Shown here: positions 1 through 25,823 of the stretch, piece after piece
Position numbering within the stretch: the stretch's first letter is position 1
Layout: every line of letters begins with the position of its first letter
DNA from: Dehalococcoidales bacterium
Lineage (GTDB): Bacteria > Chloroflexota > Dehalococcoidia > Dehalococcoidales > UBA2162
Assembly (NCBI GenBank): GCA_016932435.1
Contig: JAFGCW010000003.1
Location: 1 to 43,867 of the forward strand
Reading direction: 5' to 3'
DNA length: 43,867 nt
Translations under genes and position numbers: made by a program
The notes under the pieces: model-generated
Seen by the model: only the letters and a program-made list of their open reading frames with translations
What the model was told of the DNA's origin: nothing
The model's database searches: none

Positions 1-102
1 ACCAAGCATATTGTTATACATGATAGGGTATTTATCCCGAATAAATTCGGTGTATTTGAGAGGTGAGATATGGGCATATGCATCTACAATTATCGAATTC
101 AT
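1..102 (-). CDS. Amidohydrolase-2-like protein, N-terminus only (runs off window)
   Basis: Only the first 34 codons are present. The ATG at 102 is preceded by a strong AAGGAGG-type ribosome site about 7 bases upstream. The protein opens with MNSIIVDAYAHISP, which matches the start of TIM-barrel amidohydrolase-2 (ACMSD-like) hydrolases or decarboxylases, where the usual motif is D-x-H-x-H. Here Tyr replaces the first metal-binding His (D-A-Y-A-H). The gene lies 276 bases downstream of the transhydroxylase small subunit on the same strand, so it may belong to the same aromatic-compound gene set. The assignment rests on a short N-terminus and is therefore modest. Confidence 0.6.
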   Translation of the reverse strand, partial: MNSIIVDAYAHISPLKYTEFIRDKYPIMYNNMLG

Positions 103-3718: not shown

Positions 3719-3925
3719 TCATAGAAGAAAAGGAAAACAAGGGAATAATAAACGCGCTTTATTCTTTAACAGCTTTGTGAATACTGTATCAAAATTATCC
3801 ATTCCATCTTGGCAGCTGGAACACAAACCTACTGTTTTTCCAGCTAAGTCACCGACGCGTGGAGTCGGTGCATAGGTTGGGAATGACTCGATTACTCTAC
3901 GAGGATTAAAAACTTCGATTTCCAC
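3719..3925 (-). pseudogene. Short UGSC-family N-terminal-like fragment (68 aa)
   Basis: Starts at GTG 3925 and ends at a TGA 41 bases before the transhydroxylase start. Residues about 6-55 resemble the N-terminus of UGSC-family proteins: an NP motif, then TPRVGDLAGKTVGL, then a helix ending in KLLKNK. The same block occurs in this window at the start of the UGSC gene at 11838 (NPVG, then APRLDTLDGKEIIL). The fragment stops in a hydrophobic tail well before the U/C-G-S-C site, so it is either a broken gene or a stand-alone domain. Reading past the TGA gives only about 12 codons before the next stop, so selenocysteine read-through is not a good explanation. Confidence 0.5.
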
Positions 3926-4021
3926 TCGTTAATCCATTTTTTAACCTCAATTTATTATCGAATATACCATCCTCATGTAAATATTATGTATATTTATACT
4001 CGTTCTTTGTTGACGTAACAG

Positions 4022-10881: not shown

Positions 10882-11790
10882 TTGACGTTTCAATATATCA
10901 TAAATAGAATAGGATCATTACAATATTCCAACTATTTAACGGGAGAAATTGAGTTGCGTTCTCCTTCGACTACAGAATTTTCATCGGGTGATATTTACTT
11001 CTTGGTCAGCACGGTAGATCCGGACCTTCTGAAAAGCATGGACTCGATTTCGAGTGATCCTGAATTCATCGAAAGCATGATGGAACAAGGAGCAGTAAAG
11101 GTCTTCCACAGGATCATGCTCCTCGACGAAAACGAATTAACGACAAGTATTACCCCCAGGTTTCTCTTTGAGATCTTACTCAGGACGGCACGATTCGAGT
11201 TGAAGAACCGCGGTTACACAATTGAACGATCGGCTTCGATGAAAGTACCGGTATTCGACAGCCGGGACGTGGTTGATTTCATGGAAAACAGGGAGATTAT
11301 CAGGTACCTTGCCGATATGCTGACCTCCTTTACGAAAATACAGAGTTACACTATCCCGATTCGAGTACGCAAGGGATTCTGGCGCCGGATTAGATTCAAT
11401 GACATGGATATTGACAGCTTGATGAGGTATTGCCAAACGGTCGAGGAAGATTCGCGCTTCAGTATTTATAAGCGAATTGCCGACCTGTGTCTCTTTTTAC
11501 TGGGGATATTCCCCGAGCATGTTACCCCTGTAATAATAAGTAGTTCCTTTCCAGGGCAACCGGGTTCGAGAATGTTCGGCAGGATGAGACGTTCCGCGCA
11601 GGAGTATGCCGAGGAAGGCAGGCGTTTTTATAAACTGGCGGCAGAACACCAGGACTCATCCAAAGCAGGATTGACCAGAGCCCTCTGGGTACTCCATGAG
11701 CGGTTCGACCTGGCCAGAAAACCTTTAAACTACATCTCGGAAAATCTCGTACAGTTTAAAAAGGTGAAGCTTTTCCCGTCCAGTTCCTAG
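10882..11790 (+). CDS. Conserved-looking hypothetical protein (302 aa)
   Basis: I do not recognise this protein. It starts at TTG 10882 with a weak TAAGG upstream. The protein is soluble, with no signal peptide or clear membrane span. The middle (about 130-220) is rich in charged helices and one hydrophobic stretch, ADLCLFLLGIFPEHV. The C-terminus has a helical, TPR-like feel (YKLAAEHQDSSKAGLTRALWVLHERFDLARKPLNYI is split across helices). It ends 47 bases before the UGSC-family gene on the same strand, so the two are likely co-transcribed. Codon use and the length of the open frame support a real gene. Confidence 0.65.
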   Translation: MTFQYIINRIGSLQYSNYLTGEIELRSPSTTEFSSGDIYFLVSTVDPDLLKSMDSISSDPEFIESMMEQGAVKVFHRIMLLDENELTTSITPRFLFEILLRTARFELKNRGYTIERSASMKVPVFDSRDVVDFMENREIIRYLADMLTSFTKIQSYTIPIRVRKGFWRRIRFNDMDIDSLMRYCQTVEEDSRFSIYKRIADLCLFLLGIFPEHVTPVIISSSFPGQPGSRMFGRMRRSAQEYAEEGRRFYKLAAEHQDSSKAGLTRALWVLHERFDLARKPLNYISENLVQFKKVKLFPSSS

Positions 11791-11837
11791 AAGATACCCC
11801 ATTAAAAAACAGAGAAAGCGTTGAAAGGAGCCTGATA

Positions 11838-13586
11838 ATGGCAGAAAAGGACAGAGTGTATAAGTGCCTTAACCCAGTGGGTATACAAATGCCAATCAAG
11901 ACATTCCCCCTTGCGCCGCGACTCGATACACTCGATGGAAAGGAGATAATTCTCAGCATCACCGGAGAACCGGATATTACCATCCCGCTTGAGAAAAAAC
12001 TCCTCAGTGAGTATCCGAACGTGCACTGGAGAGTGAAAAAGACCTACACCACAGTCCCGGTGAGACTGTCCGATGAGGAGATGAAAACCGCGGACGCGCT
12101 CATCCAGGCGATATGCTGGTGAAGCGGTGCCGTCTGGAGGCAGTTGCCCTATTTAGCCAAACTAGAAAAAGCAGGTATCCCGACCGTAGTGGTCGACCTC
12201 GCAGACCAGGAGCAGATGGTAAAGCAGGAATCCCTGGTAAATGGCGTACCAAAGATCCGTTATCTGCACGCATCGCGAATCCTTTCCGGTCCTGAAGACG
12301 TGGATAGATTCGTTGAGCCGATGCTCCAGGAGTTACTCCGTCCATTGAACGAAGAGGAAAAAGAAAGCGGTTTATATACGATTCCCCAGAAGAGAATTAT
12401 CTTCGAAGGAACTCTTGAAGAAGCCCAGGATTTTTACCAGCAGACCGAGTGGATTCCCTTGCCAGTGGAAGCGCCGATAGCGAAGTATACTGACGGCTTC
12501 CCGATAATTGTTCCCACTGAAGAAAAGGTAGCCTGGATGTTGACGGGTACAAGTCGTAAACCTGATGAAATACTAACTCGTCAGGTTGATCTTAAGACTG
12601 TCGGAGTCGCCTGGGAAACCCTTGAGCCTAAAGGCGAACTGATACGGTTTCAACCGTTGCAGAGAACGGCGACCGTCGAACAGGTTGCCGTCAATGCGGT
12701 AATGGCTGGCTGCAGGCCTGAACACCTTCCCATTGTTTTGGCTATCGCTCAATCAGGCTGCCCGATCAGCACGACTAATTTCCCAAGTCAGGCAGTATGC
12801 GTCAGCGGACCGATCGTCAAGGAAATCGGCATGAACACTGGCTGCGGCATGTTCGGACCAGGCAGCGTTGCCAATTCACCGATTGGTCGGGCTTACCAGC
12901 TCATGACAATCAATCTTGGTGGTGCAGTACCCGGTGTAAACCGGATGGGATGCCTGGGAAGTCCACTCAATAACGGCGGTGTCGCCTACGCCGAAAATGC
13001 CGACGGGCTGCCAGTTGGATGGAAGGGATTAAACGAGGAATTCGGCTTCCGGAAGGATGAGAGTATCGTCATGGTCCAGATGATAACCGGCGGGATACTC
13101 GGTTCGCAGTTCTCACCCGGTGGCTACAGGGCACTACAGAAAAGTGGTCACGGCGGCATAGCGAGGAAATTCGACGTGAAAGGCACACCCGGACCTCATA
13201 ACTGGCTGGACTATATAGTGCCGGAACTGTATGCAGGTCGAGAGGGGGCCTGGACTATCGTGATGGTGCCTGAGATGGCACAGCACCTCGTAGACCTCGG
13301 ATTCAAGTCCAAGGATGATGTCTATAAGTACCTCTGGGAGAAAGGCTTTGAACCGTTGAAGAAATACCGGGGGAGGTCATGGCCGGATTATTCAAGAAAC
13401 GGCTGGACAGGGATCGAAAAGACTTCCGGAAAGCCATGGAAAGAATTACCCGACGATTATATGGTACCGGCAGCAGGTGATGACCCGAACGAGTTCTGTA
13501 TCACTATCGGCGGTGGGCAGGAAGAAGCCTGTATTCAACTTGCCGGAGGAAGAGGAAATGCTTTCAGCATCGATGTCTGGCGTTAA
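11838..13586 (+). CDS. UGSC-family protein with in-frame TGA: probable selenoprotein (582 aa)
   Basis: Two open frames, 11838-12122 and from 12144, lie in the same phase and are separated only by one TGA (codon 95) and seven sense codons. Read through, the protein matches the UGSC family. The N-terminal block is APRLDTLDGKEIIL (26-39). The site is ADALIQAICW-U-SGAVW, followed by LEKAGIPTVVVDL, where the family has U/C-G-S-C and then LE..GIPTV. The TGA falls at the family's Sec/Cys position. A large C-terminal domain follows (about residues 190-582), with TVEQVAVNAVMAGCRPEHLP, NTGCGMFGPGSVANSP and MITGGILGSQFSPGG. Start: ATG 11838 with AAAGGAG upstream. The function of the family is unproven; a redox role is inferred from Sec. 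The alternative is a nonsense-mutated pseudogene. Confidence 0.8.
12120..12150 (+). promoter_or_regulatory. Candidate selenocysteine codon and downstream hairpin
   Basis: The TGA is at 12120-12122. Directly after it, 12124-12131 can pair with 12139-12147 (GCGGTGCC against GGCA-G-TTGC, with one bulge and two G-U pairs), leaving a 7-base loop GTCTGGA. A shorter alternative is GGC-AGTT-GCC (12139-12148), whose loop starts about 19 bases after the TGA. Bacterial SECIS elements normally have a small loop with a G in its first two positions 16-37 bases after UGA. The first hairpin is too close and the second has a short stem, so the element is only tentative. Confidence 0.4.
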
Positions 13587-13618: not shown

Positions 13619-14107
13619 TTGGAAGAAAAAGAGAGAAAAGTACGAGCGGCAGCGTGCGGACTTTATTGCGGGGCTTGTACTATCTATATTACCTATAATA
13701 GCGGTGATAAAGAAGCCCTGAAATCAATGGCTGAACGGATTAACCAAGAGCGTGACACAAAGCTGGATCCGGAAACGGATTTTCCCTGTGAAGGCTGCCT
13801 GTCATCAACCGTCGCCTGGTATTGCCGTGAGTGCGGAATGAGGGATTGCGCTGTCAGTAAAGGAATTACCCACTGTGCGCAATGTCCGGACTTTCCCTGC
13901 AAGATAATTACCGACTTTAACGATGACGAATGGCCGCACCATGGCGAAGTGTTGACGAATGTCGAGCGTCAGAAAGAGATCGGAATTGCTGCATGGCTCG
14001 ATGAGCAGGAACAACGATGGTTTTGCCCGGAATGCGGAAAAGCTACAGGCTGGTACGATACCAGTTGCCGACAATGCGGCACTCAACTACCGGAACGGTT
14101 TAAATGA
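13619..14107 (+). CDS. DUF3795 cysteine-rich zinc-ribbon protein
   Basis: 162 aa, starting at TTG 13619 with GGGAGG upstream. It opens with ACGLYCGAC, the hallmark of DUF3795 proteins, and has further Cys pairs: CEGC, CREC, then CAQCPDFPC. The C-terminus is a separate zinc ribbon (FCPECGKATGWYDTSCRQCG). The function of DUF3795 is not established. It is 32 bases downstream of the UGSC-family gene, so it probably shares its mRNA. Confidence 0.85.
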   Translation: MEEKERKVRAAACGLYCGACTIYITYNSGDKEALKSMAERINQERDTKLDPETDFPCEGCLSSTVAWYCRECGMRDCAVSKGITHCAQCPDFPCKIITDFNDDEWPHHGEVLTNVERQKEIGIAAWLDEQEQRWFCPECGKATGWYDTSCRQCGTQLPERFK

Positions 14108-14190: not shown

Positions 14191-15198
14191 ATGGAATATC
14201 GCATACTCGGAAAAACCGGATTACGCGTATCTGAAATCGGTTTCGGATGCGGTAATGTCGGCGGCTTGATGGTGAGAGGAACCGAACAGGAACAATTCGA
14301 AGCGGTTGAACTTGCCCTGGCACTTGGTATCAATTACTTCGATACGGCACCTGCTTATGGTAACGGTCAGTCTGAGATAAATCTTGGGAGAGTGCTGAAA
14401 CAAATTAAGGAAGATGTATTTGTCGCTACGAAAGTACAAATCGGGATTGACGATTATAAAGACGTAAAAAGCTGTGTGAAAAAATCACTGGAAATTAGTT
14501 TGAACCGACTCGGTCGTGAGTACGTGGATGTTTTTCAACTTCATACCCCGATATCTTCTGAAACCGGAAGTGGAGGTCAGAACCGGAGGTTAAACCTTGA
14601 ACAGGTGCTGGGTAAGAACGGGGTTGTAGAGGCGTTTGAAGCTATGAAATCCCAAGGACTGGTTCGTTTTTTGGGTTTCACCGGCTTGGGTGATACCGAT
14701 GCGATTCATGAAGTAATAAATAGCGGATGTTTTGATGTTGTACAATCCTATTTCAACTTATTGAATCCCAGTGCTGGTATCGATGTGCCGGTAGGATTTA
14801 AGGGGCAGGACTTTCGTCAACTCATTAACTCGGCAGCAGCAAACAAAATGGGAGTCGTGGTGATCAGAGTCATAGCCGGTGGCGCCCTTGGAGGACCGGC
14901 AGCTCGTACTGGATATGCAGCTTCTTCGATTGGAGGAGGATTGACTCCAGGTTCGGAATATAAGGATGATGAAGTACGAGCGGGGAAACTTGGTTTTCTG
15001 CTTGATAGCGACCTGGACAGCATTCCACAGGCGACGGTAAGGTTTACTCTCGACAATCCGAATGTATCTACTGTACTGGTTGGTTACTCGAATACTGCAC
15101 AGATATTGGAAGCAGCGGCGTGTTCGGGAAAAGGATCGATACCGAAATCAATGCTTGAGAGACTGACACGCTTATGGGCTACCGATTTCGGTATCTAA
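14191..15198 (+). CDS. Aldo/keto reductase
   Basis: 335 aa TIM-barrel NAD(P)H-dependent oxidoreductase. The catalytic tetrad is visible: D51, Y56 (FDTAPAYGNGQSE), K81 (VATKVQ) and H118 (FQLHTP). ATG 14191 follows GGAGG by seven bases. There is no C-terminal Fe-S extension, unlike the second aldo/keto reductase at 17394. A glycine-rich loop, about residues 228-255 (IAGGALGGPAARTG, SSIGGGLTPGS), sits where the cofactor loop is expected. Substrate unknown; an SDR gene follows on the same strand. Confidence 0.88.
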   Translation: MEYRILGKTGLRVSEIGFGCGNVGGLMVRGTEQEQFEAVELALALGINYFDTAPAYGNGQSEINLGRVLKQIKEDVFVATKVQIGIDDYKDVKSCVKKSLEISLNRLGREYVDVFQLHTPISSETGSGGQNRRLNLEQVLGKNGVVEAFEAMKSQGLVRFLGFTGLGDTDAIHEVINSGCFDVVQSYFNLLNPSAGIDVPVGFKGQDFRQLINSAAANKMGVVVIRVIAGGALGGPAARTGYAASSIGGGLTPGSEYKDDEVRAGKLGFLLDSDLDSIPQATVRFTLDNPNVSTVLVGYSNTAQILEAAACSGKGSIPKSMLERLTRLWATDFGI

Positions 15199-21968: not shown

Positions 21969-22385
21969 ATGGACGATACCAAATATGGGAAATATGTGGT
22001 TAGAAAATCAGTCACCAAACCTGAACCGTGGCCCACGATGGAGTGGATTGGTGAGACCGATTATAATACGAATGTGACGTTTATGATTACCCGAGTTATG
22101 GAACCCTGCGAGATGGAGGAATATCCGCACTCCCATGATTTCGATATGTATCTCCATTTTATATCATATGACTATGAACATATGGATGAACTATTCGCCG
22201 AGATAGAAATAGGACTTGGTGAAGAACGGGAAATACATACCATCACTTCCCCCACAAGTGTGTACGTTCCGGCTGGACTCGTTCACTGCCCTCTAACCTT
22301 TAAAAGAGTTGATAAACCTATCATTCTATTCCATACCAGTATCGCGTCTAAATATGTGAAAAAGGAAGAATCCCCAAATAGCTAA
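21969..22385 (+). CDS. Small cupin-domain protein
   Basis: 138 aa with a very good AGGAGGT site eight bases upstream. The first cupin motif is YPHSHDFDMYLHF (H54 and H56) and the second is VYVPAGLVHCPL (H106), so three His can bind a metal; the usual Glu is Asp or absent. There is no DNA-binding part. It lies 27 bases before the glycyl-radical activase and should be co-expressed with it. Possible roles are a metal-dependent isomerase or decarboxylase step, or substrate sensing. Function unknown. Confidence 0.75.
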   Translation: MDDTKYGKYVVRKSVTKPEPWPTMEWIGETDYNTNVTFMITRVMEPCEMEEYPHSHDFDMYLHFISYDYEHMDELFAEIEIGLGEEREIHTITSPTSVYVPAGLVHCPLTFKRVDKPIILFHTSIASKYVKKEESPNS

Positions 22386-22412
22386 TTTCTGGAATAATCA
22401 GGATAATAACGT

Positions 22413-23321
22413 ATGGAGAATCTGGTAACGAATATTCAGGGGTATTCTATCCATGATGGTCCTGGGATAAGAACTGTGGTTTTTTTCAAGGGATGCGGAC
22501 TTGAATGCCAGTGGTGCAGTAATCCTGAATGTATCTCTCCACTCCCGGAAGTAGGATTTGTGAAAAAACTTTGCACCCGATGCGGCAAGTGTTCCGAAAT
22601 CTGTCCTACAGGAGCCCTAGTGTTAGGAGAGGATAACTTTCCTCGTATCAATCGCCCCCTGTGTACCGGATGCGGTGAATGCAGTGAAGTTTGCACTTAT
22701 GGCGCAATTGTCCACTATGGGAAACAGATGAGCGTCGAGGAAATTTATGATATCGTATACCGGGATGAGGTTTTTTACATCTCATCAGGTGGTGGAGTGA
22801 CGGTTTCCGGCGGTGAAGCATTGTTGCATCCTGAATTGGTACATGACTTATTTAGAAAGTGCAGGGATGCTAATATTCATACCTGTATCGAGACCTCCGG
22901 ATATTCTCCTTCAACAGCTATACAACAGGTTCTTCCATATACGGATTATATACTTTTCGACTTAAAACTCCTCGATTCGGAAAAACATCTTTACTATACC
23001 GGTAAACCTAACGAATTGATACTTACCAATGCTGCAATTGTAAATGAAAGTAACATAGAAACACTATTCCGCATGCCGCTTATACCGGGAATAAACGATG
23101 ATATGCGGAATATCCAAGATACAGCGGCTTTTTTGCACAAACTGGGAAATAATGCCTGTCGTATCGAGCTTATGCCGTACCACAAGCTTGGGAAAGGTAA
23201 ATACGAGTCTCTGGATAAAAAATATATTTTAAGTGATATTTCAATACACGAACTGGAGCAGATAGAAGAAGTAAAAACGGCTTTTGAGAATCTAGGAATT
23301 ACTTGTATGATATCTAAGTAA
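22413..23321 (+). CDS. Glycyl radical enzyme activating enzyme (radical SAM)
   Basis: 302 aa. C28-x3-C32-x2-C35 (CGLECQWC) binds the radical-SAM [4Fe-4S] cluster. Two ferredoxin-like motifs are inserted after it: C54, C57, C60, C64 and C84, C87, C90, C94. This insert is typical of activases for glycerol dehydratase, choline lyase, hydroxyphenylacetate decarboxylase and benzylsuccinate synthase, not of PflA, which lacks it. It generates the glycyl radical on the protein encoded 51 bases downstream. GGVTVSGGE, the SAM-contact segment, is present. Confidence 0.95.
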   Translation: MENLVTNIQGYSIHDGPGIRTVVFFKGCGLECQWCSNPECISPLPEVGFVKKLCTRCGKCSEICPTGALVLGEDNFPRINRPLCTGCGECSEVCTYGAIVHYGKQMSVEEIYDIVYRDEVFYISSGGGVTVSGGEALLHPELVHDLFRKCRDANIHTCIETSGYSPSTAIQQVLPYTDYILFDLKLLDSEKHLYYTGKPNELILTNAAIVNESNIETLFRMPLIPGINDDMRNIQDTAAFLHKLGNNACRIELMPYHKLGKGKYESLDKKYILSDISIHELEQIEEVKTAFENLGITCMISK

Positions 23322-23372
23322 TGAACGATATAATGGAAAAGAAGGATCATGTAACTCCGGGAGGAGGTAGTT

Positions 23373-25823
23373 ATGGCTACTGAAACGACGACTGATGGAA
23401 TTATACTGGACCATATCGATAATTTGAAATTAAGTGATGGTCTTTTCCGCCTGAAAGATGCCATGTTCAGTGCTTTAAGAATAATATCCGTTGACCGGAT
23501 CAGACTGGCAATGGAATCCTGGAAGGAGACCGAGGGTGAAGACATCGAACTCCGGCGTGCGAAGATGTTTGAGAAGGTGCTGGAAGGCGTCCCGATAGAG
23601 ATCTATGATTTCGACGTGATTGTGGGGAGAGAAACCGAACACCTCATCGGAGCTCCGATCTTCGTTGATGAAACCGGAGATTCGATCCCGGGTATCTGGG
23701 ATGAAGGTGATAACCTTAGCCGGGGAATGATATTACTTGGTATCAATTCCAGAGAAGAGAAAGATATCTTGAGAGAATGTTCTCGCTTTTTCGCCGGGAA
23801 GACGGCACCCGATCATGTAAAAGCTGAATGGCAGTCCATCGTGGGAACCTGGGCAAAGGATATTACGGACGCAAAAGGCGCTGATCCCACTCCTGATTCC
23901 GGTTATTTCCCGGGCATAACCTGTAGAGGTATGTGGGAAAACCTTCTCTCTAAGGGGATGCGTGGTCTGATCGAGGAAGCTGAAGAGGGTATCCAACGGT
24001 TCAAAGAAATGAAAGAGACCGACATAAACAAATTCTATTTCTGGGAATCGGCGATTATCGTGTGCGAGGCGATGATTCAATACGCCCACAGGTACGCAGA
24101 ACTGGCACGCCGGAAAGCGGAAAAAGAATCCGAAGTCGCAAGACGAGACGAACTTTTAGAGATTGCTGATATATGCGAACGAGTGCCGGAATATCCGGCT
24201 CGAACATTCCACGAAGCTCTCCAGTTCATGAATTTCATCATGATTGGCAGAGGACTGGAAGCGATGTACCCCTTACTCGTCGGCAGACTGGACCAGTACT
24301 TGAATCCGTTTTTTGAAAATGACGTAAAAGAAGGATGCCTGACGCTGGAAAGGGCTGCGGATCTGCTCGGAAACGCCCTGATACTCTGGGGGATGAAAGT
24401 AGTCGCTCCTTCCGGTGAAACCCAGGAGGAAACTCACCAGTTCAGCTACAGTATCAACAGTATCAATCTCGGCGGCGTCGATATCGCAGGTAAAGATGCC
24501 ACCAACGCCTTAAGCTATCTTGTCCTCCATTTGATCGGTCTGGTAAAGATGTCATCGCCTACAGTACTGCTCAACTGGCATGCTCAGACACCTCGCCGGC
24601 TGCTTCTGAAAGCCCTGGAGACCAACTATCAGACAAAGGGTGGCATACCTCTCTTTGAAAACAGTGACCACGTGGTGGCAAGTTTCCTTAATGACGGAAC
24701 ACCCGTAGAAGAAGCGAGGAACTGGTACGGCCAGGGCTGCGTTACTCCTATATTGCCTACAAAGATCGACCATAACGGCAGCGAAGGCAAAGGAGCAGTC
24801 AACATAGCGCTTATGCTAGACTTAACTCTTCACCGAGGTGTATCGCAGATTACCGGAAAGAAAGTAGGTATCGATGTCGGTTATCCTCGAGAATTTACCA
24901 CCTTTGAGGAATTATACGAAGCCTTCAAAAAACAGTGTGAATTTATTATTAACCGCGTCATGTGGCTGGGCACTCTAGCCCAGAGTATCGAACCTCTTTA
25001 TTTGCGTTTTCCATTTAACTCCGTTGTTGCCGGGCCGAACTGCATGGAAAAAGGTCATGATATTTTAATCACCGATTCCGACCACAGTTATGGCATCAGC
25101 GACCGGGCTATCGTTGATACGGCAGACTCATTGACCGCTATTAAACAACTGGTCTATGAAGAAAAGAAGGTAACGATGGACGAACTTCTCCAGGCTCTGG
25201 ATTCTAATTTTACTGATGAGAGAGGTGAGGAAATACGTCAGATGTGCCTGGCGGCACCCAAGTTCGGGAACGATATCGAAGAAGCCGACTTGATGGTACA
25301 GGATATCGGTATCTTCTCCGGAAGTGTGATCATGTCTTATATAAATCCTTTCGATGTGGCGTGTAAGATCTCCCGCGAAGGATTATCCTGGCACTTTTTC
25401 GGCGGATTAGGCGTAGGAGCACTCGCAAACGGACGTAAATCAAAGGAACCGCTGAATGACGGCTCGATGTCCCCAATGCGGGGCATGGATAAACTCGGAC
25501 CTACCGGTGTAATGCGATCGGTGCTCAAAGCAGGCTTTAAAGAGTCGTATGCATCCTGCCTGAACCAGAAATTCTCGGGAACCATAATGCAGAGTCCTGA
25601 AAGCAGGGAAAAACTGGCTGATCTTACCGAAACCTTCTTTAAAAACGGCGGACAGCATATTCAGTTTAATCTGGTCGATACGGATGAATTACTCGATGCA
25701 AAAGCACATCCAGAAAAACACAGAGACCTGGTAGTACGCGTAGGAGGATTCAGCGCCTACTTCGTGATGCTTTCGCCGGAAATCCAGGACGATATCATAT
25801 ACAGAAGTACTCAGGGATGTTAA
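23373..25823 (+). CDS. Glycyl radical enzyme of unassigned type
   Basis: 816 aa, in the size range of non-PFL glycyl radical enzymes. The radical site is RVGGFSAYF with Gly792 near the C-terminus. The thiyl Cys is Cys456 in YGQGCVTPIL (codon at 24738-24740). Dehydratases, choline lyase and aryl-acetate decarboxylases of this family carry Glu two residues after the Cys (C-x-E); here it is Thr458. Other family blocks are DGSMSPMRGMDKLGPTG and HIQFNLVDTDELL. GGGAGGAGG lies before ATG 23373. The partner activase is just upstream. The missing Glu argues against the standard dehydratase or decarboxylase mechanisms; radical addition (as in arylsuccinate synthases, which have Cys-Met-Ser-Pro) or a new reaction is possible. 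No small Bss-type subunits are seen. Confidence 0.92.
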   Translation: MATETTTDGIILDHIDNLKLSDGLFRLKDAMFSALRIISVDRIRLAMESWKETEGEDIELRRAKMFEKVLEGVPIEIYDFDVIVGRETEHLIGAPIFVDETGDSIPGIWDEGDNLSRGMILLGINSREEKDILRECSRFFAGKTAPDHVKAEWQSIVGTWAKDITDAKGADPTPDSGYFPGITCRGMWENLLSKGMRGLIEEAEEGIQRFKEMKETDINKFYFWESAIIVCEAMIQYAHRYAELARRKAEKESEVARRDELLEIADICERVPEYPARTFHEALQFMNFIMIGRGLEAMYPLLVGRLDQYLNPFFENDVKEGCLTLERAADLLGNALILWGMKVVAPSGETQEETHQFSYSINSINLGGVDIAGKDATNALSYLVLHLIGLVKMSSPTVLLNWHAQTPRRLLLKALETNYQTKGGIPLFENSDHVVASFLNDGTPVEEARNWYGQGCVTPILPTKIDHNGSEGKGAVNIALMLDLTLHRGVSQITGKKVGIDVGYPREFTTFEELYEAFKKQCEFIINRVMWLGTLAQSIEPLYLRFPFNSVVAGPNCMEKGHDILITDSDHSYGISDRAIVDTADSLTAIKQLVYEEKKVTMDELLQALDSNFTDERGEEIRQMCLAAPKFGNDIEEADLMVQDIGIFSGSVIMSYINPFDVACKISREGLSWHFFGGLGVGALANGRKSKEPLNDGSMSPMRGMDKLGPTGVMRSVLKAGFKESYASCLNQKFSGTIMQSPESREKLADLTETFFKNGGQHIQFNLVDTDELLDAKAHPEKHRDLVVRVGGFSAYFVMLSPEIQDDIIYRSTQGC

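Follow-up and report, generated by a model that had tools for sequence, protein, structure and literature searches.

Does the TGA at positions 12120–12122 of the window (the whole 43,867-nt stretch of Dehalococcoidales DNA analysed here) end one gene, or is it a selenocysteine (Sec) codon inside a larger one? The TGA is the sole internal stop of a 582-codon frame on the forward strand (11838–13586), which opens with an ATG 7 nt downstream of a Shine-Dalgarno-like AAAGGAG (11824–11830, forward strand) and closes with a TAA at 13584–13586. Read as a single coding sequence, the frame gives a product of 582 residues with Sec at residue 95. The initial annotation had described two frames in shared phase, separated by this lone TGA and seven sense codons, and its coordinates are exact: the codons between the TGA and a TTG at 12144 are AGC GGT GCC GTC TGG AGG CAG, and the flanks ADALIQAICW and SGAVW and the later LEKAGIPTV are present as it gave them. 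We consider it highly probable that the locus is one selenoprotein gene, in which a UGSC-like Sec domain related to GrdB/PrdB is joined to a C-terminal domain of ~400 residues, UGA 12120 is decoded as Sec, and the gene belongs to a duplicated family.

The Sec domain spans residues 11–147 (11868–12278) and the C-terminal domain residues about 186–582 (12393–13583), both on the forward strand. The C-terminal domain had no Pfam match at E 1e-3, a PDB sequence search gave no match at E 1, and no relatives of the gene were found in the viral contigs searched. In some other genomes the C-terminal domain is a separate gene, which in L056 and L071 follows a UGSC-like gene containing a TGA. In L077 (3813–8036), four stand-alone copies of the C-terminal domain lie in tandem, without a fused Sec domain.

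We compared the window gene with 21 close copies from three Chloroflexota genomes (W403 Dehalococcoidia, ARS79 Dehalococcoidales, and NC_groundwater_632 Chloroflexi). All 22 copies have TGA at the Sec codon, and the coding sequence to either side of it is homologous among them, which argues that the in-frame TGA is not there by chance. Over codons 1–94, dN is 0.023 and dS 0.48 between the window gene and the near-identical relative L001, and 0.12 and 1.03 between the window gene and L002. With dN this low relative to dS, the stretch before the TGA appears to be selected as protein; judged from these rates, purifying selection is acting on the 94 codons upstream of the TGA. A sequencing error or a decayed gene would fit the single in-frame stop, and an apparently decayed UGSC-like remnant lies elsewhere in the window, but the same TGA in every close copy and the low dN relative to dS on both sides of it leave this explanation with next to no probability.

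The same column was read in more distant genes. A fourth genome, G006 (record NC_groundwater_644 Chloroflexi, to which L029 belongs), was sampled in stretches chosen for being dense in family genes. Of the 70 genes read there, 68 carry TGA precisely at the Sec column, three of them with a second TGA, and two have Ser. The motifs of the 68 are all U-G-x-C (UGTC 20, UGSC 19, UGGC 14, UGAC 10, UGNC 5). A search with the Cys form from Phytohabitans found 69 database homologues, four of which fall short of the site; the 65 that cover it have Cys (59) or Ser (6), and since the protein database shows U as C, some of the 59 could be annotated Sec. TGC was seen in the DNA of L058 and L050, the two loci checked at that level, and both frames are unbroken. 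Apparent Cys codons in L022, L026, and L028 proved to be an alignment gap artefact, and all three have TGA. The family alignment (50 of 51 references; L017 was left out for Ns, and the partial L005-, the second L009 copy, and L018 are absent) was built from rows chosen for having TGA, so its invariant column is no test of frequency. Overall, the column that the initial annotation had taken for a Sec/Cys site holds Sec, Cys, and rarely Ser, and the window gene has there an in-frame UGA, as a bacterial selenoprotein should. This column, the TGA common to all close copies, and the purifying selection support the proposal in the initial annotation of a single 582-residue selenoprotein with a large C-terminal domain.

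SelA, SelB, SelD, and tRNA-Sec are all present in the three nearest relatives tested (W403, ARS79, and NC_groundwater_632), where tRNA-Sec exceeds the Rfam cut-off and is called by ARAGORN as tRNA-SeC(tca). SelD of these three relatives itself has one TGA, which we take to be its usual Sec site. In G017, SelB is present and SelA has no match; in G053, SelA is partial and no SelB exceeds the cut-off. No tRNA-Sec over the cut-off was detected in G006, G017, or G053, and ARAGORN found no tRNA on the G006 contig that carries selA and selB. G006 (L170, L198–L201) is a metagenome-assembled genome (MAG) with SelA, SelB, more than 100 predicted Sec genes, and an undetected tRNA-Sec; an incomplete MAG would most simply account for the absence. 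Across 148 genomes of the class, tRNA-Sec proved a weak discriminator, with a match of at least 60 bits in 98 of them; among the 16 genomes with a listed fused TGA gene, 13 have such a match (genomes were counted by eye from the listed rows). We infer that the window organism inserts Sec, in which case SelB and tRNA-Sec would decode UGA 12120.

If TGA had instead been reassigned in this lineage, or were read through as Trp or another residue, its rarity as a terminator in the window (2 of 30 large ORFs) would be accounted for. Yet some genes still end in TGA, Cys and, rarely, Ser are the alternatives found at this column, and the relatives have SelA/SelB, a tRNA-Sec with a UCA anticodon, and the single TGA in SelD, all of which make reassignment very improbable. 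TGA terminators number 7/36, 9/33, and 1/35 in loci of the three relatives (G001–G003), as against 177/357 in L030–L079, a comparison in which GC is not controlled.

Insertion of Sec at UGA 12120 would be directed by a small hairpin whose G-U-containing loop begins 19 nt past the UGA. The putative bSECIS hairpin of the window gene is AGGC[AGUU]GCCC (12138–12149, forward strand). In the close copies the stem lies at UGA+19..22 and UGA+27..30 around the loop AGUU. The full 4-bp stem is present in 19 of the 22, the lowest pair being A-U in 11, G-C in eight, G-U in one, and broken in two; the window copy is one of the latter, with 3 bp and an A.C. Its own hairpin is weak (-2.6 kcal/mol), and its 54-nt fold (MFE -11.2) is no better than shuffled sequence, 149 of 200 shuffles folding as well. 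Because the fold of the lone window hairpin is not significant, we used comparative tests.

The covariation score of the close copies was reached by one of 500 shuffles, with a warning from the tool about sequence relatedness. Sliding the stem by +1 raised the covariation (0.255 vs 0.211) but lowered the proportion of paired cells (73.9 vs 94.3%). Compensatory variation is seen in one of the four pairs only, the other three hardly varying, and the RNAalifold covariation term is just -0.06. At the codon level, CAG TTG (codons 102–103) occurs in 19/19 copies and has the highest synonymous conservation, tied with three others, of 331 codon columns, and the six-codon span from codon 99 ranks first in synonymous conservation (19 copies). 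A hairpin with a GU loop ranks among the top 5% of positions within its gene for 90% of 20 close genes, 70% of 66 G006 genes, and 62% of 21 other genes. Where the hairpin exists, its centre is at UGA+23/24 in 19/19 close, 45/49 G006, and 6/17 other genes. Set against the bSECIS constraints in the partial text of PMC13188914, the window copy has the AGUU loop and the 19-nt spacing, and its stem is too short.

The TTG at 12144–12146 (Leu103, forward strand) is the start codon in database annotation. The best 120 of 1870 protein matches are 427–501 residues long, cover at most 83% of the query, and are unnamed or labelled hypothetical; the named sources among the matches are MAGs of Dehalococcoidales and other Chloroflexota. 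Ten of the 12 database proteins aligned begin exactly at the TTG residue, from which we conclude that the databases split the gene there, as the initial annotation had anticipated. Since automatic annotation breaks such genes at the Sec codon, the whole set is hard to see in databases.

Taken at face value, these entries describe two genes, one stopping at TGA 12120 and a second encoding a 480-residue protein from TTG 12144. The TTG is kept in 21 of the 22 copies and in the window has a GGAGG just upstream, but the two are separated by only 3 nt, and the GGAGG occurs in 10 of the 22 copies. The exceptional copy, L005-, has GCT in place of TTG, yet can still build the stem in a register shifted by one base. 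Moreover, the seven intervening codons are homologous, 60 of the 69 listed homologues found with the Cys-form query are 534–633 residues long (counted by eye), those covering the site read through it, and in many distant copies a hairpin with a GU loop sits at about the same place in otherwise different sequence. Two separate genes are therefore improbable.

The initial annotation had assigned the protein to the UGSC family. The part of this assignment that stands is the position of the TGA, which falls at the Sec/Cys column of the family (PF24696/NF041046) in a homologous alignment. The motif does not: Cys is absent at U+3 from all 22 close copies (0/22), the window motif is U-S-G-A, and its clade has U-S/H/P-x-A/T where UGSC proteins have U-G-S-C. 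Cys occurs at U-2 in 11 of the 22. The window protein scores 22.4 bits against PF24696 (cut-off 25) and 19.3 bits against NF041046 (cut-off 125), whereas 47 of the 50 aligned family members match PF24696 at E 1e-3 or better. Because Cys is missing at U+3 and the PF24696 score is under its cut-off, the window protein is best described, from its sequence, as a divergent relative of UGSC proteins and not a canonical member. It also differs from them in its C-terminal domain, which is without a Pfam match; a 570-residue Phytohabitans protein with the same two-domain layout is named UGSC family by NCBI. A fusion of UGSC with a domain called Unknown_1 was reported in 2008, according to the partial text of PMC2398784; Unknown_1 may or may not correspond to the C-terminal domain described here.

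A more distant relationship was found with the GrdB/PrdB reductases (PF07355). In PF07355 genes of Chloroflexota genomes (L096–L101, L173–L197), the frame stops at an in-frame TGA where GrdB/PrdB have Sec, as seen in all 26 of the 26 that could be read; 28 of the 31 loci were examined (L175, L188, and L189 were left out), and L179 and L182, misread at contig edges, were dropped. The Pfam match of three GrdB genes (L173, L190, and L174) extends up to this TGA and no further. With hhalign, the 50-row family profile against the 26 read-through PF07355 sequences gave 96.4% (E 1.2e-9), with Sec on Sec, compared with 0.6% for a C-terminal domain control and 11.2% for a reversed alignment. An earlier comparison with six sequences gave 84.1% (controls 0.1 and 0.4%), and the family profile against three full GrdB sequences alone gave 89.6%. 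The close clade alone reached 76.6% against GRDB in an alignment that starts after the Sec, and the window protein had no direct PF07355 match at E values up to 1; the homology with Sec on Sec thus holds for all 50 rows taken together. On this profile evidence, remote homology links the Sec domain to its counterpart in the GrdB/PrdB reductases. The two share a D-A-V...U...E-x-x-G-I-P-like pattern and differ in that the C-terminal domain of the window protein is a different one. No link between UGSC proteins and GrdB was found in the partial texts of the UGSC literature (PMC2398784, PMC13188914, PMC9312934, PMC9402790, PMC5029168). Such a link would give testable chemistry to a family of unknown function.

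Repeated duplication in Dehalococcoidia and other Chloroflexota appears to have enlarged the family to which the window gene belongs. The 50-row profile matches 43 sequences in W403, 16 in ARS79, 24 in NC_groundwater_632, and 156 in G006, and among the matches listed for the first three genomes, TGA is present, counted by eye, in 25/26, 12/12, and 23/24, respectively. For G006, scoring covered 150 of 269 candidates and the listing 150 of 156 matches. Of the matches listed there, again counted by eye, 121 are full length, 117 with TGA and four without, and in at least 112 full-length copies a single TGA is the only internal stop. The sampled parts of a 359-kb G006 contig carry 17 Sec copies and those of another, of 351 kb, carry 16; lying on two such long contigs, these copies cannot be explained by stray contigs. 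In the sample of the class, 44 of 148 genomes have any family match, many to the C-terminal domain only (at most nine candidates scored per genome, rows counted by eye). Some uncultured Chloroflexota thus seem to carry the family in a dozen to more than 100 copies.

Genomes with many Sec genes are known from the partial texts of earlier reports: at least 46 selenoprotein genes in one bacterium, Desulfosediminicola (PMC12013277), at least 39 in Syntrophobacter (PMC5029168), and 19 in archaea (PMC13188914). The Chloroflexota resemble the two bacteria in this respect and differ in that a single family alone supplies the at least 112 one-TGA copies of the G006 MAG. Among the literature records listed, titles and abstract openings held no description of an expanded UGSC-like Sec family. 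If more than 100 Sec codons per genome do serve one family, views of bacterial selenoprotein number and of selenium demand in groundwater would both need revision.

The surroundings of the window copy are shared with its near-identical relative L001. The upstream neighbour, of unknown family (10882–11790), and the downstream DUF3795 gene (13619–14107) have homologues adjoining the gene in L001, where an aldo/keto reductase (window 14191–15198) follows in the same order; all three are on the forward strand, and an SDR gene is also common to both loci. No ABC solute-binding protein (SBP) lies beside the window copy. Genes of the SBP_bac_5 family adjoin both close and distant copies elsewhere, in the form of 20 clustered ORFs (two of them Pfam-checked) in 12 of 80 sequences. 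In the G006 stretches, 60 family ORFs have at least 300 residues, as C-terminal halves or stand-alone C-terminal domain genes; for 50 of them a member of an SBP cluster of 70 ORFs (one Pfam-checked) lies within 1.5 kb, in every case on the same strand. Of 100 family ORFs, with halves taken apart, 65 have an immediate neighbour from the SBP cluster, as do 58 of 159 others, in a comparison confined to the G006 stretches picked for density and made with no genome-wide control. Co-divergence of UGSC and SBP paralogues is weak (38 pairs, Mantel r 0.137, as high in 16 of 2000 permutations). Clustered CoA-transferase family III genes occur near copies in five close loci. The proximity of many paralogues, the window copy not among them, to dipeptide-type SBPs or CoA transferases suggests one enzyme per imported substrate.

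How might such a protein work? By analogy with GrdB, the selenol would attack a specific imported substrate at one of its carbons, displacing a leaving group, and a thiol would then release the Se-bound intermediate. We offer this substrate-specific, GrdB-like reductive cleavage tentatively, as possible and perhaps not quite probable. Because the window clade has no thiol at U+3, the resolving thiol would have to come from elsewhere, most likely from the conserved Cys292 of the C-terminal domain (MAGC motif, at least 90% conserved; 12711–12713, forward strand), our candidate, or from a partner protein.

The selenoprotein could instead serve general thiol redox, in the manner of thioredoxin (Trx), and not cleave a specific substrate. 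The UGSC protein was called likely Trx-fold in the partial text of PMC2398784, and the U-G-x-C of the G006 copies would suit such a role. The remote homology to GRDB (from a comparison that included no Trx profile) and the missing Cys at U+3 in the window clade point the other way, and a housekeeping redox protein would hardly be expected in dozens of diverged copies close to binding proteins of transporters; a general redox function is rather unlikely. The GrdB-like reading, extended to the family, leads to a speculative picture that may well prove wrong: Chloroflexota including Dehalococcoidia would hold a selenium-dependent catabolic array of a dozen to more than 100 diverged GrdB-like Sec enzymes per genome, many adjoining their own ABC SBP and each cleaving a different imported compound reductively, with the window branch, which lacks UxxC, using Sec and a thiol of the C-terminal domain. 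If this array is real, its biggest set would exceed by more than twofold the highest selenoprotein number for a bacterium in the literature consulted (PMC12013277).

Two further observations concern the rest of the window. What appears to be the decayed N-terminal part of another UGSC-like gene (3758–3928, reverse strand; 17.7 bits to the family profile) lies between two large oxidoreductase genes, its similarity ending after about 56 residues. On the forward strand, 21969–25823 encodes a glycyl radical enzyme, its radical SAM activase, and a 138-residue ORF; homologues of all three immediately precede a UGSC-like gene in L009 (2064–5917).
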